Assembly (NCBI GenBank): GCA_018896645.1
Contig: JAHIMF010000087.1
Span: 1 to 52,438, forward strand
Reading direction: 5' to 3'
Source: Patescibacteria group bacterium
Lineage (GTDB): Bacteria > Patescibacteriota > Patescibacteriia > UBA2591 > JABMQE01
Length of the DNA stretch: 52,438 nt
Shown here piece after piece: positions 1,366 to 37,605 of this stretch. Each line of letters opens with the position of its first letter. Position 1 is the stretch's first letter. A program made the translations under genes and the position numbers. A model generated the notes under the pieces. It did no database searches, was not told the DNA's origin, and was given only the letters and a program-made list of their open reading frames with translations.

Positions 1366-3963
1366 ATGTTAAACCAAAATTTCACAACCAAATCCCAAGA
1401 AGCTTTGCAAAACGCGCAAACATTAGCAAGCGACAAGGGCCAACAACAGATTGATATTTCTCATCTCACCTACGCTCTGCTTTCTCAAGAAGAAAGTGTG
1501 GTGCTTTCGGTTTTGCGGAAATTGGGCGTGAATATAGAAATGATAAAATCCCAACTGGATACAGAAATAAATAAACTGCCAAAAGTAGAAACCTCTGGCG
1601 GGATTGCTGAAATTTATGTTTCCCAAGATTTTAAAAAAGTTTTAAATGAATCATCAAATCAAGCTAAAAAATTTGGGGATGAGTTTATATCTACTGAACA
1701 TTTGTTTTTGGGAATTTTAACAGTTGACTCCCCCACCAAAATCATTTTGGAACAGAGCAATATAAAATATGAGGAAGTTTTAAAAATCCTTTCCGAGGTT
1801 CGGGGCACCCAACGAGTAATTGACCCCGAACCGGAAGCTAAATACCAGGCCCTGGAAAAATACGCTCTCAATTTGACGGAAACCGCCCGACAAGAAAAAC
1901 TTGACCCAATAATTGGCCGGGATGATGAAATCAGACGGGTGATGCAAGTGCTCTCCAGGCGCACTAAAAATAATCCGGTTCTAATCGGCGAAGCCGGGAC
2001 TGGTAAAACCGCCATTGCTGAAGGTTTGGCCCAAAGGATTGTGGCTGGCGATGTGCCTGAAAGTTTGAAAGATAAAGAAATAATTTCGCTTGATATGGGC
2101 TCACTCGTTGCCGGCACCAAGTTCCGCGGCGAGTTTGAAGACCGACTCAAAGCCGTGCTTCGGGAGATTAAAGAAGCGGCTGGCAAAATAATTTTATTTA
2201 TGGACGAACTTCATACAATTGTCGGCGCTGGAAGCGCCGAGGGCTCCGTTGATGCTTCCAATATGTTAAAACCGGCCTTAGCTCGGGGTGAATTGCATGC
2301 GATTGGCGCCACTACGCTCAAAGAATATCAAAAATATATTGAAAAAGACGCGGCTTTGGAACGTCGGTTCCAGCCCGTATACGTGAGTGAACCGAGCTTG
2401 GAAGATACTATTGCTATTTTGCGCGGCATCAAAGAGAAATATGAAGTTCATCATGGAGTAAGGATTACAGATTCTGCTTTGATTGCCGCGGCAGAACTTT
2501 CTAACCGTTATATTTCTGACCGTAAATTACCGGATAAAGCCATTGACTTGATTGATGAAGCAACTTCTGCTTTGCGTATGGAGATTGATTCCATGCCCGA
2601 GGAGCTGGATAAATTTAAGCGCAAGGAAATGCAATGGGAAATTGAAAAACGAGCTTTAAAAAAAGAAGGTTCGCGCGAAGCTAAAGCCAGAATTAAGAAC
2701 TTAGATAAAGATTTAGCCGAACTTAAAGAACAATCTCGCGAACTGGAAGTCCAGTGGAAAGCGGAAAAAGAAGTCATTTCTAAAACTCAAAAGATTAAAA
2801 AACGAATTGACGGCTTAAAACAGGATGCAGAAATTGCTGAACGAAATTCAGAGCTCCAAAAAGTAGCCGAAATTAGATACGGCAAAATTCCAGAATTAGA
2901 AAAAGAGCTTAAAGCCAAAGCCGCCGAATTAGCTAAACTGCAAAAAGAAAAACAAATTTTAAAAGAAGAGGTCAGTGAAGAAGATATTGCCGCGGTTGTC
3001 AGCCGCTGGACAGGAGTGCCTATAACTCGCCTGCTTGAGGAGGAAAGCGAAAAATTAACCCGCATGGAAAAAGAGATTGGGAAACGAGTGCTCGGACAGA
3101 AGGAAGCCATTCAATCAGTAAGCAATGCGGTGCGGCGCTCACGAGCCGGGATAAGCGAAGAAAATCGACCTATTGGCTCGTTCATATTTTTGGGCCCTAC
3201 GGGCGTTGGCAAGACCGAACTTGCCCGAGCTTTGGCAGAATTCATGTTTAATGATGAGGATTCAATGGTGCGCATCGACATGAGTGAATACCTGGAAAAA
3301 CACGCTGTAGCCAAATTGATTGGTTCACCGCCCGGTTATGTTGGCTATGAAGAAGGCGGACAATTAACCGAAGCTGTTCGCCGCCGGCCGTATAGCGTGA
3401 TTTTGTTTGATGAAATTGAAAAAGCGCATCCCGAAGTGTTCAATATTTTACTTCAAGTTTTGGATGACGGACAACTAACCGATGCCAAGGGCCGCCGAGT
3501 TAACTTTAAAAACGCGATTATCATTATGACTTCTAATATCGGCAGTGATATTATTCAAAAAGAAGCTATCGGCTTTAGCGACCACAAATTTAAAAATGAA
3601 ACTAAAGATAAGATTATGGATCTGGTGCGGGAGCAGTTTAAGCCCGAGTTTTTAAATCGCGTGGATGAAATTATCATGTTTCACAGTTTGACTAAAAATG
3701 ACATTAAGCAAATTGTTGAACTGCAATTGGCCCAAGCTGCCAAGCGTCTTGAAGCTAAAAATATCAAACTGGAATTTAGCGACAAACTTAAAGAATTCAT
3801 TACTAATAAGGGTTATGATCCGGTTTATGGGGCACGGCCATTAAAACGAGTCATTCAAACTATGATTATGGATGAGTTGGCTTTGCGGATTATTGAGGGG
3901 AGGGTTAAAGAAGGAGCTAAAGTTAAAATTGATACAGAAAAAGGAAAGGTGGTGATAAAATAA
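1366..3963 (+). CDS. clpB: ATP-dependent chaperone ClpB
   Basis: An 865-aa AAA+ disaggregase that, with DnaK, pulls apart heat-aggregated proteins in the cytoplasm. The N-terminal Clp domain is at about 1-150; NBD1 has Walker A GEAGTGKT at 208-215 and Walker B ILFMDELH; a long charged coiled coil at about 400-520 is the M-domain that separates ClpB from ClpA/C; NBD2 has GPTGVGKT at 610-617 and [12 protein letters not shown]. Length is normal. The frame also offers a TTG at 1354, but ATG 1366 ([14 protein letters not shown]) matches the family N-terminus. No SD is visible. It follows a promoter and CIRCE site and appears monocistronic. Confidence 0.97.
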
Positions 3964-4091: not shown

Positions 4092-4430
4092 ATGGAAAAA
4101 GATATGAATCAACCAGTTACCATGAAAGACCTCGGTGAATTTACTGATGAGGTTTTATTGCCTGGAGTGGAGCTGACGATCAAACAATCAGAGAAAAGAT
4201 TAGGACAAAAAATTGAAACAAATTATAACGGTATCCAAGCAAACTATAACGGCATTCAAGAAATTATGAAAACTCTAAAAGAAATGCAAAAAAGTATTCA
4301 AAGACTCGAAATCAGGCAAGATAAAGAGAGCTTGGAAATTAGAGTTATTGATTGGTTGACTAACAGGGTTGTGGTTTTAGAAAAAAAGTTGGGCATAGTA
4401 CCGGAACCAATGCCGCAGGAGCAGAATTAA
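4092..4430 (+). CDS. Small coiled-coil protein, function unknown
   Basis: A 112-aa soluble protein. After a short N-terminus (TMKDLGEFTDEVLLPGVE) it is a predicted coiled coil, with a direct repeat NYNGIQ-A-NYNGIQ at about residues 38-50 followed by heptad-like MKTLKEMQKSIQRLE. The C-terminus is acidic and Pro-rich. No SD precedes ATG 4092; 4101 (MNQPV) is an alternative start. Such proteins occur in this phylum without known function. A bidirectional terminator follows at once. Confidence 0.7.
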   Translation: MEKDMNQPVTMKDLGEFTDEVLLPGVELTIKQSEKRLGQKIETNYNGIQANYNGIQEIMKTLKEMQKSIQRLEIRQDKESLEIRVIDWLTNRVVVLEKKLGIVPEPMPQEQN

Positions 4431-4455
4431 ATTAATTTCAAATTTTGAAAAAGAA

Positions 4456-4487
4456 AAAAGCCCTCTCTGAAACCGGAGGGGGCTTTA
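4456..4487. terminator. Bidirectional rho-independent terminator
   Basis: Stem AAAGCCCTC / GGGGGCTTT with a T-rich tract on either side. It ends the coiled-coil gene on plus and the two-gene cassette arriving on minus (TTTTTTCTTTTT after the stem). Confidence 0.85.
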
Positions 4488-4508
4488 GTTTTCTCTAGTT
4501 AGTTTTCT

Positions 4509-4946
4509 CTATAGCCAAGGAGGTGAAACATCCCTGGGCGCCAAAGCCTGTTCACGTTCAGTTTTAATTTCCTCTCTTTTAGACCTTATATAATTATCCC
4601 ACTCCTCCTTTTGCTCCATAGTTCTAACGGTTAATATCACCTCATCCGCGTCATAGTAACCAAGGGCAAATATCCACCAATCATTGACAGTCAAAAGAGT
4701 CCCAATGGCAGTTGAGTCAACCTTCACCTGAATTTTCGCATTAATAAGAGAGGCATAAATTGATCCCTCTATTCCAGCAACCTCAAAGGATACTTCTTCA
4801 AGCCAAGATGATGCCCCAATAAGGGGTTTATCTTCAAAGCCAAACATCAAAGGTCCTGTAATCAACATTGCAAATATCACGAGTATTACTACTACGAAAA
4901 TCATGAAAATGCTATAAATTCCCGGAGAAACTAATTTAACTGCCAC
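4509..4946 (-). CDS. Single-pass membrane protein, unknown
   Basis: GTG at 4946 is chosen as start because AAAGGAGG lies 8 nt upstream; a longer frame reaches 5042 without such a site. The 145-aa product has one strong membrane segment (YSIFMIFVVVILVIFAMLI, about residues 11-30), then a globular domain with a probable beta-rich core and a charged C-terminus (EEWDNYIRSKREEIKTERE). No family recognised. It is the second gene of a minus-strand pair, 67 bp after the preceding stop, and ends at the shared terminator. Confidence 0.7.
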   Translation of the reverse strand: MAVKLVSPGIYSIFMIFVVVILVIFAMLITGPLMFGFEDKPLIGASSWLEEVSFEVAGIEGSIYASLINAKIQVKVDSTAIGTLLTVNDWWIFALGYYDADEVILTVRTMEQKEEWDNYIRSKREEIKTEREQALAPRDVSPPWL

Positions 4947-5013
4947 GGCTCCATCCTCCTTTAAAATGGGTGAAAGTAAAAAGGAACGATTTGACAAGCT
5001 CAACCATACTTTA

Positions 5014-5232
5014 TCATCGCCCGTTTTTCTTGTCAATCTCAATCATCCGATTGAGCGCTTTTTGCGCCAATACTTTCCAACCCTCACATCTCTTATGGAT
5101 AATGGTTTCTTGGGCATATTTTACTGGCCTCCGAATAACATACTCATACTTGTCATCACCTAAAGACTTTTTGCGTACAATCCCCAGACTATCTATCTGC
5201 TCAAAGTTCACATAAACCTCTAATCTTAACAT
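5014..5232 (-). CDS. Small hypothetical protein (72 aa)
   Basis: ATG 5232 has GGAGG five bases upstream; the frame extends to 5280 but without an SD. The basic 72-aa product (MLRLEVYVNFEQIDSLGIV...) is soluble, has one cysteine, and no recognised domain. First gene of the minus-strand pair with the membrane protein at 4509-4946. Confidence 0.65.
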   Translation of the reverse strand: MLRLEVYVNFEQIDSLGIVRKKSLGDDKYEYVIRRPVKYAQETIIHKRCEGWKVLAQKALNRMIEIDKKNGR

Positions 5233-5285
5233 AATATCCTCCACAGCAATGTGTTTAAAAGAACAAACCACCACCCACAACTATT

Positions 5286-5313
5286 ACTTTAACTTATTAC
5301 ATTAATTTGTCAA
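5286..5313 (-). promoter_or_regulatory. Candidate promoter of the 5.2-4.5 kb pair
   Basis: On the minus strand TTGACA (5313-5308) and TAAAGT (5291-5286) are 16 bp apart, upstream of the SD of the first gene. The -35 is perfect, the -10 weak. Confidence 0.5.
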
Positions 5314-5396
5314 CCCTTTTACTTCCTGCTATAATAACTGTAACAAAACGTTAGAAAAAAAGTCTAATTAATTGAACCTAGTTTTAACTAAGACCT

Positions 5397-6776
5397 ATGC
5401 GAATCAAATTTATTATTGTTGCCTTGTTACCTTGCTTCATTGTTTCATTGTTTTGGACCACAACTGCCAACGCCCAGGACTTCAACCCCCATTACATCCT
5501 CTCCAACACCGAAATGACTGATTACGCGTCTATGGGAATGTTTGATATTGTTCAGTTTATAAAAAACAAGGGCGGCACTCTTTACACGGCTCGATTTGAA
5601 GATATTGACGGCAAAACCAAGTCTGCCCCAGCTTTGATTTATAATGCGGCAAAAAATTATGAAATCAACCCCAAAGTTTTATTGGTAACTCTACAAAAAG
5701 AACAAAGTTTGGTTGATAATCCGGCTCCCACTCAAAAAAACTATGACTGGGCTACTGGCTGGGCCGTGTGTGATGGCTGTAGTTTAAGCGATCCTAAAGT
5801 CGCTAAATATAAAGGCTTTGCTAAACAAATTGACGGGACGGCCGGAGGTTACAATTGGTATCTGGAGCAATTTGCGAGCGGCGGAAACACCTGGCTCATC
5901 TGGCCTAAAAAAACCACAACTATTGACAACGAATCCGTAACCCCAGCCAATGAAGCAACCGCGGCTTTATATAATTACACTCCTCATCTTCACGGCAACG
6001 AAAATTTTTGGAAACTTTGGGATAAATGGTTTTCCATAAACTATCCTGATGACTCTTTACTGCAGACTGAAGGCGAAGATGGCGTTTGGCTGATTCAAAA
6101 CGGCTACAGGCGTCCGTTTAAATCCAAAGCTGCGTTTATCTCCAGTTATGATATTAATAATATCCTTTTGGTCTCTAAAACTGAAATAGAAAAATTTCCC
6201 GCCGGCAAAGAAATAAAATTTGCTAACTATTCCCTACTCCGCTCGCCTGCTGGCACCATTTATCTTTTGGTAGATGATAATCTTCGGGGCATTCAATCGA
6301 TGGAAGTCTTTAGAACTATTGGTTTTAATCTAGAAGAAGTTATCAAAGTAACCAATGAAGACCTGCAAGAATACACTGAAATTGAGCCTATTACTATGGA
6401 AAGCGCTTATCCTACTGGCGCGCTTTTGCAAAACCGTCAGACTGGCGGGGTTTATTATGTTAGGAACGGCGCCAAACAAGGCTTAATTGACCGCTCGGTT
6501 ATGGATATCAATTTTAAGGGTTGGCATATTACTCCTGTGACTACTGAAGAACTTTCTAAATATCCTAATCTGCCGCCAGTGAAAATTAAAGATGGCAAAC
6601 TAATCAAATCAGAAACTGCTAGCGCGGTTTATGTGATTTCTGATGGCCAGCGCCGCCCCATTACCTCGGCCGAGACTTTTGAAAAAATGGGGTATAAGTG
6701 GAAAAATATTTTAAGTGTGCCGCAGAAAGTTGTTGATTTGCATGAGGAAGGCGAAGTTGTGAGTGTGGCTTATTGA
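5397..6776 (+). CDS. Secreted wall-lytic-like protein with four repeated surface modules
   Basis: A 459-aa exported protein. A signal peptide (residues 1-26, ending TTANAQ) precedes an alpha-helical domain at about 70-220, where 'NPKVLLVTLQKEQSLV' has the glutamate and spacing of lysozyme-like or glucosaminidase-like cores; GGYNWYLEQFASG and NEATAALYNYTPH also fit. From about 225 a module recurs roughly four times ('GVWLIQNGYRRPF', 'TIYLLVDDNLRGI', 'GVYYVRNGAKQGL', 'AVYVISDGQRRPI'), perhaps wall- or glycan-binding. Likely acts in the envelope on peptidoglycan; catalysis is inferred from the Glu motif alone. No SD. Confidence 0.75.
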   Translation: MRIKFIIVALLPCFIVSLFWTTTANAQDFNPHYILSNTEMTDYASMGMFDIVQFIKNKGGTLYTARFEDIDGKTKSAPALIYNAAKNYEINPKVLLVTLQKEQSLVDNPAPTQKNYDWATGWAVCDGCSLSDPKVAKYKGFAKQIDGTAGGYNWYLEQFASGGNTWLIWPKKTTTIDNESVTPANEATAALYNYTPHLHGNENFWKLWDKWFSINYPDDSLLQTEGEDGVWLIQNGYRRPFKSKAAFISSYDINNILLVSKTEIEKFPAGKEIKFANYSLLRSPAGTIYLLVDDNLRGIQSMEVFRTIGFNLEEVIKVTNEDLQEYTEIEPITMESAYPTGALLQNRQTGGVYYVRNGAKQGLIDRSVMDINFKGWHITPVTTEELSKYPNLPPVKIKDGKLIKSETASAVYVISDGQRRPITSAETFEKMGYKWKNILSVPQKVVDLHEEGEVVSVAY

Positions 6777-6848
6777 TTTAGTATTTATTTGACTGCTGCC
6801 CATTACTATGACAAAAATTCATCATCATGATATAAATATTCATTAAGA

Positions 6849-6854
6849 TATAAT
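6849..6854 (+). promoter_or_regulatory. Possible -10 box of the 6.9-7.4 kb cassette
   Basis: TATAAT lies 45 bp before the start of the tiny membrane gene at 6894. No good -35 is visible at the usual spacing, so this is tentative. Confidence 0.35.
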
Positions 6855-6893
6855 GTTTTCAGCTCATTTCATTCATTAGAAGGAGGGTTGAAT

Positions 6894-7058
6894 ATGCCTG
6901 CCACTCGACTGAACAGATTTTTTGACTGGCTGGAACAAGAATCATTTTGGGCTTGTGTTATTGATAGTGTTGGTTGTTTTGTATTGAGCGTGTTAGAATT
7001 TTGCGGAGTTATATTTTTGGCTTCTAAACTAATGGGCTCTACTAATCGTAAAAGTTGA
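6894..7058 (+). CDS. Tiny membrane protein (54 aa)
   Basis: ATG 6894 is preceded by AAGGAGGG with a 6-nt gap, one of the best ribosome sites in the window. The product, MPATRLNRFFDWLEQESFWA..., has one hydrophobic span (ACVIDSVGCFVLSVLEFCGVI) with three cysteines and a basic tail. No known family. It lies 41 bp before a zinc-ribbon membrane gene and probably shares its transcript. Confidence 0.65.
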   Translation: MPATRLNRFFDWLEQESFWACVIDSVGCFVLSVLEFCGVIFLASKLMGSTNRKS

Positions 7059-7099
7059 ATTAGCAAAAACTCTCGCCAAACACTGAAAGGAGAGGACGA

Positions 7100-7369
7100 A
7101 TGGAAGGACGAGTTAAATTTCCGCCAGATAGTTGTCAAGGGTGTGAGTTCCCTGTTTGCTATCCTGATGATAGAATTTGCGATGAATGCCGGAAGATGCG
7201 GTGGCAAGCCCTGCCAAGGCACAAAAAGGCTTTGTCTCGGCTTTCAGAACTTCCATGTTACATCGCCGCAGTTTTGGGAATACTTTTTGTTCTTGGACCC
7301 GCTATAGTTGCCGGTGTCCTAACATTGGGGGTTGCCAGCATTGCCTGGGGGACAGATAAGGTCCTCTAG
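7100..7369 (+). CDS. Small zinc-ribbon membrane protein (89 aa)
   Basis: ATG 7100 follows AAAGGAGAGG by 5 nt. Residues 12-31 hold four cysteines (C-x2-C...C-x2-C) resembling a zinc ribbon. Residues about 50-85 are hydrophobic and could form one or two membrane spans (YIAAVLGILFVLGPAIVAG). The layout, tiny membrane protein then CxxC membrane protein, repeats at 34512-35208. Function unknown; perhaps a membrane-tethered metal or redox protein. Confidence 0.7.
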   Translation: MEGRVKFPPDSCQGCEFPVCYPDDRICDECRKMRWQALPRHKKALSRLSELPCYIAAVLGILFVLGPAIVAGVLTLGVASIAWGTDKVL

Positions 7370-7442
7370 TGCCTGAACCTATTAGAACGGCCTCATGCCG
7401 TGTTGGGGATGAAGTTTTTTATACCTTTATGGTATGATTTTT

Positions 7443-7483
7443 ACGGAAGAATGTGAGTTTTACTTGCATCTTCCGTTTTTATT
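7443..7483 (+). terminator. Rho-independent terminator of the 6.9-7.4 kb cassette
   Basis: ACGGAAGA / TCTTCCGT stem (18-nt loop) followed by TTTTTATTTTTTT. Confidence 0.8.
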
Positions 7484-7518
7484 TTTTTAGTGAAGCTAAA
7501 ATTATCCACAATTAAAAA

Positions 7519-7546
7519 TTGACAAAAAAATTAGACATGCTATACT
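7519..7546 (+). promoter_or_regulatory. Promoter of the structured leader before priA
   Basis: TTGACA (7519-7524), 16 bp, TATACT (7541-7546). Transcription would start about 7553, exactly at the AAAGGTAGG segment that is complementary to the downstream tRNA-like anticodon arm. Confidence 0.8.
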
Positions 7547-7552
7547 TATATC

Positions 7553-7632
7553 AAAGGTAGGAGATCTGATTACATTTCAGGTCTACCCACTTGCTAGCAA
7601 AAAGCCACTGGAATTCCCAGCGGTTTTTTGCT
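7553..7632 (+). ncRNA. Leader RNA ending in an intrinsic terminator-like hairpin
   Basis: From the predicted start, GGTAG..ATCTGA pairs with TCAGGT..CTACC to give hairpin one. A second hairpin, AGCAAAAAGCCACTGG / CCCAGCGGTTTTTTGCT (7596-7632), has its T-run in the 3' arm like a terminator. AAAGGTAGGA (7553-7562) and CCCACTTGCTA (7586-7596) are exact complements of adjoining halves of the tRNA-like anticodon arm (7687-7706). This suggests an attenuator or small RNA; the function is inferred. Confidence 0.5.
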
Positions 7633-7659
7633 ATATTAAAGTTGGGCGTGGTGGTCTTC

Positions 7660-7734
7660 GGGCCTGTGGTGTAAGTCAGGTTAACATCCTACCTTTAGCA
7701 AGTGGGGCTAGGGGTTCAAATCCCCTCGGGTCCA
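7660..7734 (+). tRNA. tRNA-like cloverleaf, anticodon UAG, atypical
   Basis: Acceptor GGGCCTG / CGGGTCC (7 bp, two wobbles), D-stem GTGT/ACAT with GG in the loop, and T-arm AGGGG-TTCAAAT-CCCCT are intact. The anticodon arm is odd: either 5 bp with a C-A mismatch and loop TTTAGCA (C at position 37), or CCTAC/GTGGG with a 9-nt loop. The central triplet is TAG (would read CUA, Leu), yet there is no long variable arm as in tRNA-Leu. No CCA is encoded, unlike every other tRNA here. Flanks GGGCGT (7644-7649) and GCGCCC (7737-7742) also pair. Either a degenerate tRNA or a tRNA mimic regulating priA. Confidence 0.4.
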
Positions 7735-7756
7735 TTGCGCCCTTAATTTATCTTCC

Positions 7757-9724
7757 ATGATTGCCAAAATAATCCCTAAAATTAAACTCCCCCGTTCTGC
7801 AAACTCTATATTTGATTATCAAGTTCCCAGAGAAATGGAACTAGATATTAAAATTGGGCAGATGGTGGAGGTGCCGTTTAGAAATAAGAAAGTTGAGGGA
7901 ATCATTATAGAAATAAAGAAACAGAGACCTTCAACAAGTTCAGATTCTAACGAAAATAAAGAAATAAGGAGATTAAAACCAATCATCAAAATTTTGGATG
8001 AAAAACCGATTTTGTATCCACGGCAAATTGAAGCGCTGAACTGGATTGCCGAGTATTATTATGCTCCTTTAGCTTTGGTGTTGAAAACATTTGCACCGGA
8101 TGTGCCGAAAACAAAAAATCAAGATATCAAGATATCAAGATATCAAGATATTGGGTTCAAACTGACTGTGCTGAAGTCGCGGTTGCCAGAGATTAAAAAA
8201 GCTATTGACGAAATCATTAACTCCCAAAAAAATGTTCTTTTTCAATGGAATGATTTGCGGGAAAAGATTACTGTTTACATTAAGCTGGCTGAACACTGCA
8301 TCCGCGAAAAAAAACAAATTCTAATTATTTTGCCCCAAATTACTGACGTTGAATTCTTGCATAACTATTTATACCCCCAATTTCGTTCAAAAATAGTGCT
8401 TTTACACGCCCAATTAGCAAAGACTGCTTGTTATAATAATTGGACTAAGATACGCGGGAATAAGGCAAAAATTATCTTAGGAACCCGGTCGGCGATTTTA
8501 GCGCCAATGAAAAACCCGGAGTTAATTATTATTGATGACGAGGAAGCTAGCGACCACAAACAATCTGACATGAATCCGAGATATGATGTGCGGAAAATTG
8601 CGGAAAAGTTAGGAGTCAAGGTGATGTTTGCGAGCAAAGCGCCGCGGATTGATACCAGATACCAGATACAAGATACAAGGATACAAAAAAATTTCAAATT
8701 TCAAATTTCAAATTTCAAACTCGAATTTGTAAAATTGATTAATCAGAAAACCGCGGTAGAATTAATAGATATGGTGAATGAGTTGAGTAGGGATGAATAT
8801 TCGCCAATTAGTTTGAAAATGGAGGAAAGGATGAAGGAGACATTAGAGCAAGGTGAAAAGGTTGTTCTTTTTTTAAACCGCAAGGGCACGGCGACAATGG
8901 CAGTATGCAAAGATTGCAATTATTTATATAAATGTCCGCATTGTAATCTGCCATTCGCCTATCACGAAACCGAGAAACAACTAATTTGCCATCATTGCGG
9001 CTTTAAGACTGATGCCCCGCTCACTTGTCCAGCCTGTAAGGGACATAATATAAAATTCCCGGGTACGGGCACCCAAAAAATTGAACAAGAGGCGCGTAAA
9101 CTATTTCCTGATAAAAAAATTATCCGCATTGACAAAGACGCTTCTTACTATCGCCTAGATATTGCTAAATATGACATCATTATTGGCACGCAATTGTTTT
9201 TTAAATTATTTCCCAACCTGGAAAATGTGGGTCTGGTGGGGATTGTTTCAAGCGATGCTTTGCTTCACCGTCCAAGTTTTCGCTCTTGCGAGAAAACTTT
9301 TCAAATGATAAGTAAAATTTTAGTTTGGGCGGGGTTTAATAAGGCCAAGCAAGTGCTGATCCAAAGCTATACGCCAGAACATTATTCTATCAGATATGCC
9401 GTAGCCCAAAATTATGACCAATTTTTTGAACAAGAAATTGAATCTAGACGGCAACTCGGGTATCCTCCTTTTATCAAACTAATTAAATTAATTTATAAAA
9501 ATGAAAATCAAAACCAAGGAGTTAGTGAAGCCGAGCGCCTTGCTAACCAATTGCAAAAAATCAAAAGTATTCAAGTTATTGGGCCAGCTTCTCCCTATGT
9601 TTCAAAAATCCGCGGCCGTTTCCATCAAGAAATAATTTTAAAAACCTCCTTGGATTTTAAACTACCCATTGCTGTTATCCCCAATAATTGGCTGATTGAT
9701 GTGGAGCCGGAGGAAATTCTATAG
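7757..9724 (+). CDS. priA: PriA-like primosomal protein N' with degenerate helicase motifs
   Basis: A 655-aa homologue of PriA, which reloads the replisome at stalled forks. The N-terminal DNA-binding domain (1-105) and four CxxC pairs of the zinc domain (coding 8907-9045) are intact, as is the C-terminal 'FEQEIESRRQLGYPPF' region. The ATPase core is eroded: Walker A GxxGxGKT is replaced by 'FQWNDLREKI' (162-171), Walker B reads IIIDDEEAS, and motif VI QxxGRAGR reads KILVWAGF. It probably binds DNA and partners without unwinding. Two repeat-derived insertions (coding about 8105-8150 and 8653-8725) add low-complexity peptide. No SD; ATG 7757 lies 22 nt after the tRNA-like element. Confidence 0.88.
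   Translation: MIAKIIPKIKLPRSANSIFDYQVPREMELDIKIGQMVEVPFRNKKVEGIIIEIKKQRPSTSSDSNENKEIRRLKPIIKILDEKPILYPRQIEALNWIAEYYYAPLALVLKTFAPDVPKTKNQDIKISRYQDIGFKLTVLKSRLPEIKKAIDEIINSQKNVLFQWNDLREKITVYIKLAEHCIREKKQILIILPQITDVEFLHNYLYPQFRSKIVLLHAQLAKTACYNNWTKIRGNKAKIILGTRSAILAPMKNPELIIIDDEEASDHKQSDMNPRYDVRKIAEKLGVKVMFASKAPRIDTRYQIQDTRIQKNFKFQISNFKLEFVKLINQKTAVELIDMVNELSRDEYSPISLKMEERMKETLEQGEKVVLFLNRKGTATMAVCKDCNYLYKCPHCNLPFAYHETEKQLICHHCGFKTDAPLTCPACKGHNIKFPGTGTQKIEQEARKLFPDKKIIRIDKDASYYRLDIAKYDIIIGTQLFFKLFPNLENVGLVGIVSSDALLHRPSFRSCEKTFQMISKILVWAGFNKAKQVLIQSYTPEHYSIRYAVAQNYDQFFEQEIESRRQLGYPPFIKLIKLIYKNENQNQGVSEAERLANQLQKIKSIQVIGPASPYVSKIRGRFHQEIILKTSLDFKLPIAVIPNNWLIDVEPEEIL
8653..8725 (+). repeat. Dispersed repeat inserted in frame in priA
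   Basis: Runs of 'gataccagatacaagata' followed by three copies of 'tttcaaa' encode IDTRYQIQDTRIQKNFKFQI, unlike any PriA. The 'aaggatacaaaaaatttc' part recurs in the palindromic element just after priA (9729-9837), so one repeat type occurs both inside and beside the gene. Confidence 0.7.
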
Positions 9725-11212: not shown

Positions 11213-14200
11213 ATGATTGTCATAGGAATAGATATTGGCTCAATCAGTATTAAAATGGCACTGGTAGGCGAAGAAGAAGATCGGGTACGGCTAGAACAGG
11301 CATTGACCAAAGTAGGGGTTGATTGCAATCAACCCCTACTGCACGAAAACGGGCTTTCATCTATCGCTGGTCACCTGCTGGTAGTAACCAAGTATCAACG
11401 CATTGCTGGGAACCCGACAGATGTTACGCGAGAAATGCTAAAATCCTTGTTAGGGCTGGTTCCAAAAGACTGCATTGGAGGCATCCGCATAACTGGATCA
11501 GGTGGAAAGTTGATTAGTGGGTTATTAGATGCTCCGTTTGAAAATGAATTTCGGGCTATTACCCAAGGGATCTCCTCCCTTTATGGGGAAGTAAAAACTG
11601 TCTTTGAAATGGGTGGCGAGACTTCCAAGTTTATCCAGTTAGAGCGAGATGTCGTGTCGGACCGCATTGGGATTGCTGATTACGAAACCAGTGGTGATTG
11701 TGCCGCTGGTACCGGCTCCTTTATGGATCAACAAGCCACCCGATTGCTCTTTAAAATTGAAGATGTCGGAGATATTGTTATGGGAGCAGGCAAAGCCGCC
11801 ACCATTGCTGGACGTTGTTCGGTCTTTGCCAAATCTGATATGATTCATGCCCAGCAAAAAGGTTACGAGCCGCCAGAAGTTCTCAAAGGTCTGTGCGAGG
11901 CAGTGGCTCGTAATTTTAAAGGAAGCATCACCAAGGGTAAAAAAATCAAACCACCTATTGCTTTTATCGGCGGGGTGGCTGCTAATCAAGGTGTGGTCCA
12001 GGCCATGCGCACTGTGTTCAAACTAGAGGAAAATGACCTTTTTGTACCAACATACTATGCCTGGATAGGCGCCATTGGTGCGGCCTTATTGGAAATGCAA
12101 AGCTATCAAGAAAAAACAACCATTGCTTTGCCTAAAGTAGTGGATTTAAGTCGATTCCAAGCCCCACAGGAAGCAACTTTTCCTTTTACTGAACCTCTAG
12201 ATCTTGATAAAGCGATCTTGCTAAGAGACCGGGTCAAACCCTATCGTTTCCAAAAGTCTGGGAAAGTAGATGCCTATCTGGGCCTTGACATCGGGTCAGT
12301 CAGCACTAAATTAGTCATCATTGACCAAGCTGGTGATCTTATTTATGAAATCTATACTACGACCGATGCTCGGCCCATTGAGAAAGTTCACAAAGGACTT
12401 CAGGAAATCGAACAAGCCATTGGCGACCGAATCACAATCTGCGGTGTAGGTACCACTGGCTCGGGCCGAGAACTAATCGGCGAGTTAGTAGGGGCCGATA
12501 CTATCAATGATGAGATTACTGCTCATAAAACCGGAGCGATATACATCGGACAAAAACTTATTGACCAAAAGGTAGACACTATTTTTGATATCGGTGGCCA
12601 GGATTCCAAATTTATTAGTATTCAGGACGGTGTGGTAGTAGATTTCACCATGAACGAAGCCTGCGCTGCTGGCACTGGTTCCTTTTTGGAAGAACAGGCA
12701 GAAAAATTGGAAATTAACATCATCGGTCAGTTTGCCGAGATGGCTCTCCGATCTCGCCAGCCCATTCGTTTAGGTGAACGTTGCACAGTATTCATGGAAC
12801 GCGACCTAACCTCCTTTCTCCAACACGGAGCTATAAAGGATGACCTGGTAGCCGGCTTAGCTTATTCAGTGGTCTATAACTATTTGAATCGCGTAGTGCG
12901 GGATCGCAAGATTGGTGAAGTGATTTATTTTCAGGGCGGCACGGCGTACAATGATTCGGTAACTGCGGCTTTTTCCAAAGTACTCGGTAAGCCAATTATT
13001 GTTCCACCGCACAATGGGGTGGTTGGCGCTATTGGTATGGCTCTTTTGGCTAGAGAAAAAGTATCCCTGACCAAAAAACCCACCACCTTCCGGGGGTATA
13101 GCCTGGAAGCAGTGGATTATACAATCAGAGAATTTACTTGTCGGGCTTGCTCAAACTTTTGTGAAATGCGCGAGTTTAATATAGAAGGAGAGCGCACCTA
13201 TTGGGGTGACAAGTGTTCGTACCAGTTTCGCAAACGAGCTAAAGTTGAAAAAAAGCCGATGCTTCCGGACCTGATGGCCAAACGTATGGAACTTCTGATG
13301 GCGGGATATGATGAGCAAGAGGCTGTAGAAGGCCAGATTAAAATCGGTTTGCCAAGGAGCATGTACTTTTTTGATCGGTTTCCTTTTTGGAATGCCTATC
13401 TAAAGGAATTGGGCTTTAAAGTAGTGGTGTCCGAGCCAACGAACAAGCAAATCACTGAGGCCGGTATTGAAGCCCTAGTGGCTGAACCTTGTTTTCCGAT
13501 TAAGGTAGCTCATGGGCACATCACTGACCTAATTGCTAAAGGCGTGGATTATATTCTTCAGCCAAATATGCTTAATGAAGAAACCGATGTTCCTGAAATA
13601 GCGTCTCATGTCTGTCCCTGGGGCCAAACCCTGCCCTTTGTTATCCGACAGGCTCCGCTGTTTGCAGACTACCATGATACGTTTCTAGTACCTACTATTC
13701 ATTTCCGGGAAGGGTCAAAACAAGTAAAGAAAGAATTGAGAGGATTGGCTAGACGTTTTGGGATCTCCAATAAACGCAGTGACGCGGCTATAGACCAAGC
13801 ATACCTGGCCCAGCAACAATTTTGGGCGGACCTCGGGACGGCTGGTCAAGAAGCGCTGGAGCTACTGGCTACCCATAATGAACGCGCAATTGTCTTAGTG
13901 GGCCGGTCATATAACGTAAATGACCGAGGGATCAACATGGATATCCCTGATAAACTTCGCCGATACTATGGCGTTAATATTATCCCCATGGATATGCTTC
14001 CTATTCAAGGAATAGACATCTCAGATATCAATCCTAATATGTATTGGAGCTATGGTCGTAAGATTCTCCAAACCGCTAAGCTGGTGGCTAAATATCCCAA
14101 CCTCCACATTATCTATATTACCAACTTTAAATGTGGTCCGGATTCCTGTATCAAGCACTATGTCCGTGAGGCATCCGGAAAGCCTTTTCTTTCCCTTCAG

Positions 14201-14278
14201 TTTGATGAGCATAGCAATGATGCTGGGATCATGACCCGGTGTGAGGCTTATTTAGATAGTAAGGGATTTTTGAGATGA
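11213..14278 (+). CDS. BcrA/BadF/HgdC-type acyl-CoA dehydratase activator fused to DUF2229
   Basis: A 1021-aa protein with two tandem ASKHA ATPase domains (GIDIGSISIK near residue 4; LGLDIGSVSTK near 357), each with the iron-sulfur signature CAAGTGSF (Cys163 and Cys484). A Cys-rich linker (FTCRACSNFCEMREF) leads to a DUF2229-like region (GLPRSMYFFDRFPFWNAYL; AEPCFPIKVAHGH) and C-terminal CGPDSC. Relatives use ATP to energise an electron for 2-hydroxyacyl-CoA dehydratases or benzoyl-CoA reductases; no such partner is in the window. Strong SD AGGAGG, own promoter and terminator, and absence from most reduced genomes suggest acquisition. A 30-bp palindrome is embedded at residues 33-43. Confidence 0.9.
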   Translation: MIVIGIDIGSISIKMALVGEEEDRVRLEQALTKVGVDCNQPLLHENGLSSIAGHLLVVTKYQRIAGNPTDVTREMLKSLLGLVPKDCIGGIRITGSGGKLISGLLDAPFENEFRAITQGISSLYGEVKTVFEMGGETSKFIQLERDVVSDRIGIADYETSGDCAAGTGSFMDQQATRLLFKIEDVGDIVMGAGKAATIAGRCSVFAKSDMIHAQQKGYEPPEVLKGLCEAVARNFKGSITKGKKIKPPIAFIGGVAANQGVVQAMRTVFKLEENDLFVPTYYAWIGAIGAALLEMQSYQEKTTIALPKVVDLSRFQAPQEATFPFTEPLDLDKAILLRDRVKPYRFQKSGKVDAYLGLDIGSVSTKLVIIDQAGDLIYEIYTTTDARPIEKVHKGLQEIEQAIGDRITICGVGTTGSGRELIGELVGADTINDEITAHKTGAIYIGQKLIDQKVDTIFDIGGQDSKFISIQDGVVVDFTMNEACAAGTGSFLEEQAEKLEINIIGQFAEMALRSRQPIRLGERCTVFMERDLTSFLQHGAIKDDLVAGLAYSVVYNYLNRVVRDRKIGEVIYFQGGTAYNDSVTAAFSKVLGKPIIVPPHNGVVGAIGMALLAREKVSLTKKPTTFRGYSLEAVDYTIREFTCRACSNFCEMREFNIEGERTYWGDKCSYQFRKRAKVEKKPMLPDLMAKRMELLMAGYDEQEAVEGQIKIGLPRSMYFFDRFPFWNAYLKELGFKVVVSEPTNKQITEAGIEALVAEPCFPIKVAHGHITDLIAKGVDYILQPNMLNEETDVPEIASHVCPWGQTLPFVIRQAPLFADYHDTFLVPTIHFREGSKQVKKELRGLARRFGISNKRSDAAIDQAYLAQQQFWADLGTAGQEALELLATHNERAIVLVGRSYNVNDRGINMDIPDKLRRYYGVNIIPMDMLPIQGIDISDINPNMYWSYGRKILQTAKLVAKYPNLHIIYITNFKCGPDSCIKHYVREASGKPFLSLQFDEHSNDAGIMTRCEAYLDSKGFLR
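11311..11340. repeat. 30-bp perfect palindrome inside the activator ORF
   Basis: AGTAGGGGTTGATTG followed by its exact reverse complement, encoding KVGVDCNQPL between the first beta strands. A near-identical palindrome follows the stop codon. Confidence 0.9.
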
Positions 14279-18617: not shown

Positions 18618-19043
18618 TTACCTTGCTTCAGTCCCAAAAAAATATCGCCACCATTTAATTGGGTTATACGGCTCTTCAACTTCCGGCTCACTAGTATCAT
18701 TCATGGATTCTTGTATCTGAATCATTTCAAGAGAAGTGGCTGCTGGTGAGGATATTATCACCACTTCCTCCCCTGGTTTTTTAAGGCCCAGCTGCAACCT
18801 GGCGCTCTCTTCTTCAAAAGTATCTGTATGCAAATAATCAATCAAATAGGTTAATTCTATATTGCGCCCCTCCAGTTCATTTATTTTATTTTCCAGCTCG
18901 GCAATCTCTCGATTGACTTCCATCTTTCTGGTCACCACTCTCACTAATGTCAAAGAAGCCAAAATTAAAAAAATCAGACTGGCAAATAAAAAAAGTTTTG
19001 ACGCTAAAATTGTTTTAAGGGTTGAACCTGGGGTACCTCTCAT
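18618..19043 (-). CDS. FtsB/DivIC-like septum formation protein
   Basis: 141 aa. One membrane span (FLFASLIFLILASLTLVRVV, about 18-37), then a coiled coil (KMEVNREIAELENKINELEGRNIELTYLIDYL) and the 'EEESARLQLGLKKPGEEVVII' motif characteristic of the DivIC/FtsB family. Such proteins bridge early and late divisome parts via FtsL and FtsQ. Placed near ftsE/ftsX. Confidence 0.85.
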   Translation of the reverse strand: MRGTPGSTLKTILASKLFLFASLIFLILASLTLVRVVTRKMEVNREIAELENKINELEGRNIELTYLIDYLHTDTFEEESARLQLGLKKPGEEVVIISSPAATSLEMIQIQESMNDTSEPEVEEPYNPIKWWRYFFGTEAR

Positions 19044-19080: not shown

Positions 19081-19191
19081 TATAATTCAAATCTACGAAT
19101 GAATGCTAATCTACGAATGCTACCCGTCTCGCCGACGAGGCAGACAAATTTTATTTGCGGCATTTGAATACATTTGTAGATTTGAATTATA
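19081..19191. repeat. Inverted-repeat element, 'CAAATCTACGAATG' family, copy 1
   Basis: TATAATTCAAATCTAC (19081-19096) is exactly complementary to 19176-19191. The centre contains a second 'aatctacgaatg' and 'tttgcggcattTg'. A relative lies at 36772-36843. Confidence 0.75.
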
Positions 19192-19201
19192 TCAGGCGCT
19201 C

Positions 19202-19230
19202 TTGCAATTAAACTTCGCATTTGATATACT
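19202..19230 (+). promoter_or_regulatory. Promoter of the 32-aa membrane peptide
   Basis: TTGCAA (19202-19207), 17 bp, TATACT (19225-19230); the start codon is 39 bp downstream. Confidence 0.7.
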
Positions 19231-19268
19231 TGAATCAACCGACAGTAGAAAATTCCCAGCTAACTTCA

Positions 19269-19367
19269 ATGAAAAAACAAAAAAAGCACAAAATATTTTG
19301 GATATTCGCCGCTGTCTTTATTATTCTCTCAATGGTCTTTATGCTGGTGGCACCGGCTCTTTTTTAA
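19269..19367 (+). CDS. 32-aa single-span membrane peptide
   Basis: MKKQKKHKIFWIFAAVFIIL... then SMVFMLVAPALF: a lysine-rich N-terminus and one hydrophobic helix. It has its own good promoter but no clear SD, and converges on lepA. Short membrane peptides of this look occur in related genomes; the role is unknown. Confidence 0.55.
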   Translation: MKKQKKHKIFWIFAAVFIILSMVFMLVAPALF

Positions 19368-19375
19368 ATCCCAAC

Positions 19376-21349
19376 TTATCTCTTTAGCACCGCCAAATAA
19401 GCCTCAGTTGGAATATCTACCCGACCATGGCTTTTCATTTTTTTCTTGCCTTTTTTCTGCTTCTCCAGTAATTTTCTTTTCCGAGTCACATCACCGCCAT
19501 AAAGTTTAGCAGTAACATCTTTACGCATTGCTGAAATCCGCTCACTGGCAATAATTTTTCCTCCGCCCTCATTTCCCCTGGCTTCCTGATACCCAACTGC
19601 GGCTTGAATTTTTACCTCAAACATTTGGCGGGGTATTGCCTCTTTTAGTTTCTTAACTATTGCTCGAGCCTCTTGGTAGGCTCTTTTTTTATAAACAATT
19701 GCGGAAAGGGCTTCTATTTTTTCTTCAGCCACCAAAATATCTATCTTTTCAAGTTCAGCCAACCGATATTCCAAAAACTCATAATTCATAGAAGCATAAC
19801 CGCTGGTCGCACTTTTAAGTTTATCATAAAAATCCGTCAAAAGAAATGAAAGCGGTATTTCATAATGAAGAATAACCCGCGCACCATATCCGCCTTGCGC
19901 CTCGGTGCGGGGTACTGCCCCCTCGCTTTGGCCATGGGTTAAATATTCGGTGGTTTTATAAACACCGCTGCGATCTTGCAAAAGTTTCATTACATTGCCA
20001 AAATAATCTTCTGGGGTGATGATATCAATTTTCATCCAGGGCTCCGAGACGGTTTCATAATCATTAGGATTGGGCAGCTCTTGCGGGCTATGAATCACAA
20101 CTTGCTTTCCGTTTTTAAGGTTAATTTTGTAAGCCACAGATGGTGTAGTAACTACCAACTCCAGTTCATACTCGCGGCGAAGGCGCTCTTGGATAATTTC
20201 TAAATGCAATAAACCCAAGAAGCCGCACCTAAATCCAAAACCCAGGGCTGGAGAATTTTCTGGCTCAAAGTTTAAGGCAGCATCAGTAAGCTTGAGCTTC
20301 TGTAAAGCCTCGCGGAGTTTATTAAAATCACTCCCCTCTTTACAATGTATTCCGGCAAAAACCATGGGTTTCACTTCTTTATAGCCTGGCAATGGATTAA
20401 CTCCAGTCCCCACAATAGTATCCCCAACCCTGCAAACTTCAACCTGTTTAAGTCCGGTGACCACATAACCAATCTCGCCGGCCTCCAATTGTTCGGTTTT
20501 CTTTAGCTTGGGCGTGAATACCCCAACTTCAAGCACCTCGCTCTCTTTACCCGTGGCCGCGAATTTGACTTTATCACCCGCTCTCATCTGACCGTCAAAC
20601 ACTCGGACATATGCTAGTACGCCTTTGTATTCATCAAACTGTGAATCGAAAATCAATGCCCGCACAGGATCAAGGGCGCCTGTGCTGCCCCTCGCCGATG
20701 GCTGCTCACCAGCCCTCTTTGAGCTTGAGATAGCCCGAAAGCTTGCTGGTGAGATCGGTGCCGGCACATCCCTAACAACCCGCTCCAAAACTTTTTCCAC
20801 ACCTGTCCCCTTCTTAGCGGAAACCTCTAAAATCTCCAACTCGTCCACTCCCAATAAACTCGCCATCTCTTTTTTTGTCTTAGCCACATCAGCATTGGGT
20901 AAATCTATTTTATTAACCACTAGGATAATTGCCAAGTCTTGCTCCAGAGCTAAATAAAGATTTGACAATGTCTGCGCCTGTATGCCCTTCGTCGCATCAA
21001 CGAGCAAAATTGCACCTTCAACCGCCGCTAGACTTCGCGAGACCTCATAAGTAAAATCAACATGGCCAGGGGTGTCAATCAAGTTTAGTATGTATTCTTT
21101 GCCTGATGCCTGATAGTTGAGGCTTGAGTTGCTCAAGGACAGCGGTATATATTTCATTCGGACAGGTGTCAATTTTATAGTAATCCCCTTTTCCCTTTCA
21201 AGCTCCATCTGATCTAAAACTTGCTCTTTCATGTCCCGCTGGCTGACGGTATGGGTTAATTCTAAAAAACGGTCCGCGAGAGTGGACTTTCCATGGTCTA
21301 TATGGGCGATGATACAAAAGTTGCGGATGTTGAATGCGGGGGTTGACAT
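19376..21349 (-). CDS. lepA: Elongation factor 4 (LepA)
   Basis: 657-aa ribosome-bound GTPase, longer than the usual 600. G1 AHIDHGKST (15-23), EREKGITIK, DTPGHVDF and NKIDLPNA are intact, and the C-terminal 'YGGDVTRKRKLLEKQKKGKKKMK' is diagnostic. Two inserts explain the extra length: PLSLSNSSLNYQASGKEY in the G domain, and a repeat-derived 'SSKRAGEQPSARGSTGALDP' near residue 215, before the beta-barrel. ATG 21349 gives the standard N-terminus without SD. Confidence 0.96.
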   Translation of the reverse strand: MSTPAFNIRNFCIIAHIDHGKSTLADRFLELTHTVSQRDMKEQVLDQMELEREKGITIKLTPVRMKYIPLSLSNSSLNYQASGKEYILNLIDTPGHVDFTYEVSRSLAAVEGAILLVDATKGIQAQTLSNLYLALEQDLAIILVVNKIDLPNADVAKTKKEMASLLGVDELEILEVSAKKGTGVEKVLERVVRDVPAPISPASFRAISSSKRAGEQPSARGSTGALDPVRALIFDSQFDEYKGVLAYVRVFDGQMRAGDKVKFAATGKESEVLEVGVFTPKLKKTEQLEAGEIGYVVTGLKQVEVCRVGDTIVGTGVNPLPGYKEVKPMVFAGIHCKEGSDFNKLREALQKLKLTDAALNFEPENSPALGFGFRCGFLGLLHLEIIQERLRREYELELVVTTPSVAYKINLKNGKQVVIHSPQELPNPNDYETVSEPWMKIDIITPEDYFGNVMKLLQDRSGVYKTTEYLTHGQSEGAVPRTEAQGGYGARVILHYEIPLSFLLTDFYDKLKSATSGYASMNYEFLEYRLAELEKIDILVAEEKIEALSAIVYKKRAYQEARAIVKKLKEAIPRQMFEVKIQAAVGYQEARGNEGGGKIIASERISAMRKDVTAKLYGGDVTRKRKLLEKQKKGKKKMKSHGRVDIPTEAYLAVLKR

Positions 21350-36945: not shown

Positions 36946-37294
36946 ATTTATGATAATGCCCAAGCAAGCAATAAGCCGGATTCTGTTTTAAACGGTCATC
37001 TATCTAGACCTGATGTTGCCATCAGATTCTAACGGCCTACCAATTTTGGCCTTTCACCCGAGCAGAAGTTTACCCCGCCTGAATGTCACCATTCAAACGC
37101 GTGAGCTCTTACCTCACGATTTCACCTTTGCCTCGCATAATACAAGGTAGTTTGTTTCTGTTGCACTGGTCCTGGGCTTCAATTAAATAAAAACTCTCTA
37201 GAGATGTCTTTACTCAACCTACTCCCGGTCCGTGTTACGGACTGCTCTTTTACCAACACATAAATTATGTGCTGGTGAGTGTCCGGACTTTCCT

Positions 37295-37605
37295 CCCCCC
37301 ACCACTTTTACCGTCTATAGCTCAACACTATTCACAATTCTTTTACGTAATTCCTTATAACCATTCTTAAAATGTTTTAGTCTCCTTTCTCTAATCAATG
37401 CATCCTTTTTACTTTTATAAGCTTCATAATATACAAGTTCTAATGGCAACCAATTTCGAGTGGACTTTACTTGTCCCGTCTTATGTTCTAATATCCGCCT
37501 CTTCAAATTTTCCGTAAAACCTATATAAAACTTACCTACTTTGATGCTTTTTAAAACATAAACATAGAACATGCATAGTGTATAAAAAGTAAAAGTGGTG
37601 GGGGG
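37295..37605 (-). mobile_element. 311-bp inverted-repeat element with GIY-YIG ORF inside rnpB
   Basis: 17-bp perfect terminal arms, CCCCCCACCACTTTTAC and complement, enclose 277 bp of which 258 bp are the ORF. The arms double as rnpB helix P3. No target duplication is visible. A short relative without ORF lies at 25866-25936. Whether the arms belong to a mobile element or to P3 itself is unresolved. Confidence 0.6.
37315..37572 (-). CDS. GIY-YIG nuclease-like protein encoded in the rnpB P3 loop
   Basis: 85 aa, single-domain GIY-YIG (UPF0213/YhbQ-like). 'FYVYVLKSIKVGKFYIGFTENLKRRILEH' gives the two motif tyrosines (YVYVL, FYIGF) and catalytic Arg; Glu at 'RERRLKHFKNGYKELRKRI' supplies the metal ligand. 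Such small nucleases resemble the catalytic half of homing endonucleases. No SD precedes ATG 37572; it can only be read from the RNase P transcript or from a cryptic promoter. All catalytic positions look intact. Confidence 0.9.
   Translation of the reverse strand: MFYVYVLKSIKVGKFYIGFTENLKRRILEHKTGQVKSTRNWLPLELVYYEAYKSKKDALIRERRLKHFKNGYKELRKRIVNSVEL

Follow-up and report, generated by a model that had tools for sequence, protein, structure and literature searches.

Our results point to a family of two-RNA elements in Patescibacteria, in which a short antisense leader RNA would mask the anticodon arm of the tRNA encoded directly behind it. The combination of a tRNA with a cognate antisense RNA is a real and recurrent arrangement and, as far as we searched, an undescribed one: full-text searches with partial coverage of the literature found no description of such a two-RNA family, and no dedicated antisense RNA for any tRNA turned up in the literature covered. 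On balance, we slightly favour the full explanation that the leader masks a mis-sense tRNA and that the two likely form a toxin-antitoxin-like or selfish pair.

The element was found in a window of 52,438 nucleotides (i.e., the whole stretch of DNA that was analysed), where its parts and the neighbouring gene are located as follows:

7519..7546, forward strand: promoter P1 of the leader RNA (TTGACA, 16 nt, TATACT), with TG preceding the second hexamer and a predicted start at ~7553
7553..7632, forward strand: leader RNA of ~80 nt, presumed antisense, with an intrinsic terminator at its end; relatives have covariance-model matches of the same span
7553..7561, forward strand: segment P, AAAGGTAGG, complement of the 5' half of the anticodon arm (7688-7696)
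7562..7584, forward strand: small hairpin AGATCTGA-TTACATT-TCAGGTCT between P and Q
7586..7596, forward strand: segment Q, CCCACTTGCTA, complement of U33, anticodon and A37 plus the 3' strand of the anticodon stem (7696-7706)
7596..7632, forward strand: terminator hairpin (-13.5 kcal/mol) with a U run at 7624-7629
7632..7637, forward strand: candidate -10 hexamer TATATT, extended by a preceding TGC, of the tRNA promoter P2, weaker than P1
7644..7651, forward strand: 5' flank GGGCGTGG, complement of CCA...CGCCC (7732-7734 and 7738-7742)
7660..7734, forward strand: tRNA with an alanine-type acceptor (G1-C72, G2-C71, G3:U70, A73), called by ARAGORN and Rfam
7688..7706, forward strand: anticodon arm, target of the leader (P' 7688-7696, Q' 7696-7706)
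7757..9724, forward strand: priA-like ORF of 655 aa, a neighbour only and outside the system

The initial annotation had described two leader segments as exact complements of the adjoining halves of the anticodon arm, in permuted order and behind a consensus promoter. The promoter, the segment coordinates, the exact matches and the permuted order were all reproduced, with P:P' consisting of AAAGGTAGG and CCTACCTTT and Q:Q' of CCCACTTGCTA and TAGCAAGTGGG. The pairing potential of the window leader extends to more of the 5' half of the tRNA than these two segments, and the 190-nt segment folds far better than its shuffled versions (z = -6.85). Summed complementarity between leader and arm was 52.5 in the window, versus at most 42 at the genome's own 45 ordinary tRNA genes and at most 41 at 83 ordinary tRNA genes of related loci.

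Conservation of this complementarity in homologues had been set beforehand as a check. Two distant relatives, G042 and G034, showed compensatory changes (AAAGGTAGT/ACTACCTTT with ACCACTTGTCA/TGACAAGTGGT, and AAAGGCAG/CTGCCTTT with CTGCGTGTCA/TGACACGCAG, respectively), and no homologue turned out to be an ordinary tRNA. Covariation was quantified in the 46 members with the permuted layout, one of which (L055) is mis-anchored at P and lowers the counts. Positions 3-9 of P:P' formed Watson-Crick pairs in 34-43 of these members, where 13-20 would be expected with independent columns, and the pairs of Q:Q' were Watson-Crick in 40-45. A variant layout, in which the P complement spans the whole loop and Q aims at the variable region, occurs with GAU anticodons (L054, L072, L205). 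Thus, the earlier suggestion of a strange tRNA with a masking leader was right in outline, since relatives compensate and the pairing with the arm is conserved.

The complementarity is not only conserved by covariation but also specific. Its own arm was the best match for 45 of 48 leaders, and the remaining three have near-identical arms in common. In genomes with several copies, the mean score was 53 for cognate and 27 for non-cognate combinations, with values up to 45 for a related pair in G310. Predicted binding energies followed the same order, at -10.6 kcal/mol for a leader with its own tRNA, -1.8 with other members and -0.9 with ordinary tRNAs. We also considered ordinary tRNAs as the targets. 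However, the best ordinary tRNA of the window's own genome scored 36, compared to 52.5 for the cognate tRNA, and no good fit was found between the leaders of this genome and its ordinary tRNAs. Judging from these patterns, the leader very probably pairs with its tRNA in the cell.

The P:P' and Q:Q' pairings cross, because the order of the strands is permuted. Therefore, they can form jointly only if the two helices abut at a junction, which is sterically constrained, and partial pairing between leader and tRNA may be the working state. An H/ACA-like guide was rejected, as the order of the two guide halves is opposite to that topology.

Most members combine the body of one tRNA with the anticodon of another. 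The acceptor features G1-C72, G2-C71, G3:U70 and A73 are kept, while pairs 4-69 and 6-67 vary. G3:U70 was present in at least 65 of 70 members and A73 in 66 of 70, whatever the anticodon, although the covariance models were built from alanine-type members, so that the G3:U70 count is biased and other bodies are under-counted. Five exceptions at pairs 1 and 3 stem from a one-base register shift in the tRNA call. The anticodon itself consists of three variable bases between U33 and A37 in 43 of 46 members. It was GAC in 25 members, GGU in four, GUC in three and GCG in three, whereas GCC, AGC, GAU, AAC, GCA, ACC and GAG were seen once or twice; two entries called as 'TTG' are register shifts of GAC.

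The base pair G3:U70 is an established determinant of alanyl-tRNA synthetase, which does not read the anticodon. Seryl-tRNA synthetase is also anticodon-blind, and serine identity is conferred by the long variable arm. Serine-like tRNAs with a class II body, G73 and anticodon GAU occur at two loci (G214/G227 and G240). These loci have the same design in another sequence (CTTATCAGGTAATG versus CATTACCTGATAAG, and GTATCAGACAAAG versus CTTTGTCTGATAC). The coordinates of the serine-type tRNAs are:

L212, 1417-1503, reverse strand: class II tRNA with G73 and GAU, with an antisense leader
L218, 1504-1591, reverse strand: class II tRNA with G73 and GAU, with an antisense leader

Since the synthetases of both recurring bodies are blind to the anticodon, most members would be mis-sense tRNAs if unmasked. 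From these identity features, it seems reasonably likely that alanine or serine is loaded onto the tRNA, which would decode codons of other amino acids once unmasked.

The window copy departs from this picture in its anticodon. Its tRNA (7660-7734) scored 36.7 bits in Rfam, above the RF00005 gathering score of 29 but weak compared to the 56-74 bits of the other six tRNAs in the window, and tRNA was the sole Rfam family matched at this locus. Elsewhere in the window (36957-37318, reverse strand), Rfam recognised a bacterial class A RNase P RNA (143.6 bits). The acceptor GGGCCTG/CGGGTCC with A73 has the G3:U70 and A73 that mark alanine identity. The initial annotation had proposed anticodon UAG without a long variable arm and without an encoded CCA. 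The missing long arm (the variable region is 5 nt) and the missing CCA hold, and ARAGORN likewise gave 'tag', but AGC (7697-7699) in the 9-nt loop CUUUAGCAA appears the better reading because of the family-wide U33/A37 rule. A tRNA-Leu(UAG) was rejected on account of the short variable region, and the genome has a proper tRNA-Leu(UAG). A tmRNA was rejected too, with 17 bits at the locus and a true tmRNA gene elsewhere in the genome.

With AGC, the window copy and one other member would decode in the sense way with alanine, and the anticodon of the window copy would not be foreign to its body. Possibly, this copy has been disarmed, or its nine-nucleotide loop may be read some other way, as 9-nt anticodon loops may not support normal decoding. 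The genome contains a full set of 45 ordinary tRNAs, including the alanine and valine sets, and hence its two copies of the element are supernumerary. The second copy (G000:C5:55746-55927, L090) has a GAC anticodon and its own matching leader, which does not match the window tRNA.

The family was collected in steps. The first search led to G042 and G034, a covariance model of three sequences to many more members, and a second model was built from 36 members. With the model R2 and a literal E-value cut, members and ordinary alanine tRNAs were inseparable below ~80 bits. We found 72 members with a tRNA callable by ARAGORN, all in Patescibacteria, and saw further ones with uncallable tRNAs. In the window's class, matches above 80 bits occurred in 36 of 362 genomes from many families, with 1-5 copies each, while no other genome sampled from the window's family or order exceeded 80 bits. 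Members are also present in other classes of the phylum, and the records carrying them include Uhrbacteria and Magasanikbacteria. The element had no match in phages or plasmids and was not found in viral collections either; eight pattern hits in IMG/VR were chance matches. Such a patchy distribution of multi-copy, mutually specific loci resembles that of toxin-antitoxin systems.

Several individual loci deserve mention. A 20-kb contig (L208, G045:C28) carries four copies (2870-3057, 18828-19010, 19168-19359 and 19463-19657), of which three stand in tandem, and their anticodon arms differ. At L092 (G054:C10, 976-1115, reverse strand), leader, terminator and P2 are intact, but the tRNA lacks the acceptor 5' strand, the D arm and the anticodon arm. 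Conversely, L086, L214 (G290) and L207 (G054:C23) have family tRNAs without an intact leader, which is decayed or absent. The two G290 copies also have in common an unusual promoter-like stretch of ~50 nt upstream. Because copies lacking the leader (G054:C23 and two in G290) or the tRNA (L092) exist, the pair is not strictly obligatory. Either some loci can do without masking, or these copies are defunct.

The same parts could also serve regulated mistranslation. As has been suggested for tRNAProX, the cell would profit from having alanine or serine inserted at a controlled share of its codons, with the tRNA masked during normal growth and freed by stress. The tRNAProX genes of Streptomyces and others encode dual-identity tRNAs that mistranslate and are toxic in E. 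coli, and they confer carbenicillin resistance besides this toxicity (PMC10365949). Like tRNAProX, most of our members are extra tRNA genes with the body of one amino acid and the anticodon of another, and the retention of U33 and A37 points to decoding. They differ in that their bodies are of the alanine or serine type, a partner synthetase gene is lacking, and an antisense leader that covaries with the arm has not been described for tRNAProX. Yet, the patchy occurrence, the several copies per genome, their unrelated anticodons and their non-matching leaders look more like a selfish or toxin-antitoxin-like unit, and we regard a mistranslation device that benefits the cell as rather unlikely.

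Known tRNA-dependent transferases use alanine and serine tRNA bodies. Hence, another explanation might be a dedicated alanyl- or seryl-tRNA outside the ribosome, for instance as donor for modification of the wall, lipids or peptides, whose leader bars it from entering the ribosome. Odd 9-nt loops would fit such a donor, and masking of the anticodon would spare translation. However, a linked transferase or other common neighbour was lacking, and the diversity of anticodons and the conserved U33 and A37 would be unneeded, which makes a non-ribosomal donor improbable.

The members examined have the same order of parts: P1, P at the predicted 5' end, the small hairpin, Q, the terminator, a candidate P2, the 5' flank and the tRNA. 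The -35 hexamer of P1 matched at least five of six consensus positions in 41 of 45 members, with the start at the P segment. The -10 element of P2 did so in 26 of 45; on average it was weakly above shuffled sequence, and the P2 of the window copy was below the threshold of the promoter consensus scan. The consensus scan placed the window terminator on the opposite strand. Folded alone, the leaders inspected (mean length 73 nt) consist of a 5' stem-loop, a single-stranded linker with the complement of the anticodon, and the terminator. In the window leader, the small hairpin tops a weak P:Q stem, and the 3' part of Q is the linker. A terminator and a second promoter between leader and tRNA suggest two RNAs rather than a single switch transcript, and from P1, the terminator and the candidate P2 the leader is predicted to be a separate transcript.

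The terminator between leader and tRNA, with Q abutting its stem, would also suit feedback attenuation, in which binding of the tRNA to the growing leader would determine how often the terminator is passed, a T-box-like autoregulation of the tRNA level. As in a T-box riboswitch, a terminator follows a leader RNA that would recognise the anticodon of a tRNA. In contrast to T-box riboswitches, however, the pairing involves the entire anticodon arm of a tRNA encoded next to the leader, and there is neither a T-box, of which Rfam recognised no sequence, nor an aminoacyl-tRNA-related gene downstream. Moreover, the overlap of Q with the stem is too small for an antiterminator, and many members have the second promoter behind the terminator. 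We therefore give attenuation little credence.

In 29 of 48 members, versus 9 of 83 ordinary tRNAs, the 5' flank is a complement of the acceptor's 3' strand and the CCA region, and serine-type members keep this pairing with another sequence. In the window, the flank would tie up the 3' end of the tRNA precursor.

As one alternative, the initial annotation proposed a tRNA mimic within a regulatory RNA switch before priA. Control of priA by such a mimic in its 5' leader fits the start of this gene 22 nt behind the window tRNA without a terminator in between, but is highly improbable and contradicted as a general role, because a same-family genome has priA without the element, a terminator-like hairpin lies right behind the tRNA in 39 of 72 members, and relatives stand by other, unrelated genes. 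For instance, G042 has smpB and G034 a terminator beside the element; an smpB-linked role was rejected, as smpB was adjacent in one relative only. At most 4 of the 58 loci had any neighbour gene in common, and the biggest cluster consisted of short reading frames over the element itself. The adjacency of priA is incidental.

The two genomes sampled from the window's family (window 4092-7757 versus L161 in G001) differ in the arrangement of the genes upstream of priA, where a 459-aa ORF and a small 'DLGEF' ORF swap places. Behind priA, a 1021-aa ORF (11213-14278) resembles, by eye, a BadF/BadG-type activator fused to a dehydratase-activating part.

Returning to the masked mis-sense tRNA, the shared architecture, covariation, specificity and alanine or serine identity features of the family suggest how the element would work. 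The strong promoter would yield a short leader RNA that stops at its own terminator, and the weaker promoter directly behind it would yield the tRNA. As an antisense RNA dedicated to the adjoining tRNA, the leader would pair through its linker with U33, anticodon and A37, after which its stem strands could swap partners with both strands of the anticodon stem, which would keep the tRNA off the ribosome. A similar course is known from CopA/CopT-type antisense RNAs, where hairpin meets hairpin and stem strands may then exchange. Our leaders differ in their permuted strand order and in that single-stranded tails, instead of a loop, would contact the target loop. Since the pairing has survived many coordinated changes, silencing of the tRNA by this small RNA is probable, and we are fairly confident that the leader is a separate antisense RNA that blocks it. 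Unmasked, most tRNAs of the family would insert alanine or serine where the codons specify other amino acids. Pairing of the precursor's 5' flank with the 3' acceptor strand might act as a second lock.

In the type I toxin-antitoxin system hok/Sok, a strong promoter drives a short antisense RNA and a weaker one the target RNA, and 5'-3' pairing may lock the precursor. Our elements invite the comparison because their antisense promoter is strong, their target promoter is weaker, and a 5'-3' pairing might lock the precursor. In the manner of hok/Sok, the stable mis-sense tRNA would be the toxin and the labile antisense RNA the antitoxin, which would make the host addicted to the pair. Unlike in hok/Sok, the target is a tRNA instead of an mRNA, no toxic peptide is involved, and antisense and target stand in tandem on the same strand without overlap. 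In the RNA-RNA toxin-antitoxin system CreTA, the toxin also acts as RNA and concerns tRNA supply (PMC8501985). CreA works via CRISPR-Cas, however, and CreT sequesters a host tRNA, whereas in our elements Cas is absent and the presumed toxin is itself a tRNA. By analogy with these systems, a toxin-antitoxin-like or selfish nature of the pair is a serious but slightly less than even prospect. Somewhat more tentatively still, it could represent a new RNA-only class of toxin-antitoxin systems in Patescibacteria, with a tRNA charged by an anticodon-blind synthetase as toxin and a cognate antisense RNA against the anticodon arm as antitoxin.

If this reading holds, odd tRNA predictions in such genomes should not all be dismissed as annotation noise, and the family offers ready-made, mutually specific antisense/tRNA pairs. 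It would also mean that, among some of the smallest bacterial genomes, tRNAs can serve as toxins or as tightly kept mistranslation devices that are ruled by base pairing alone.
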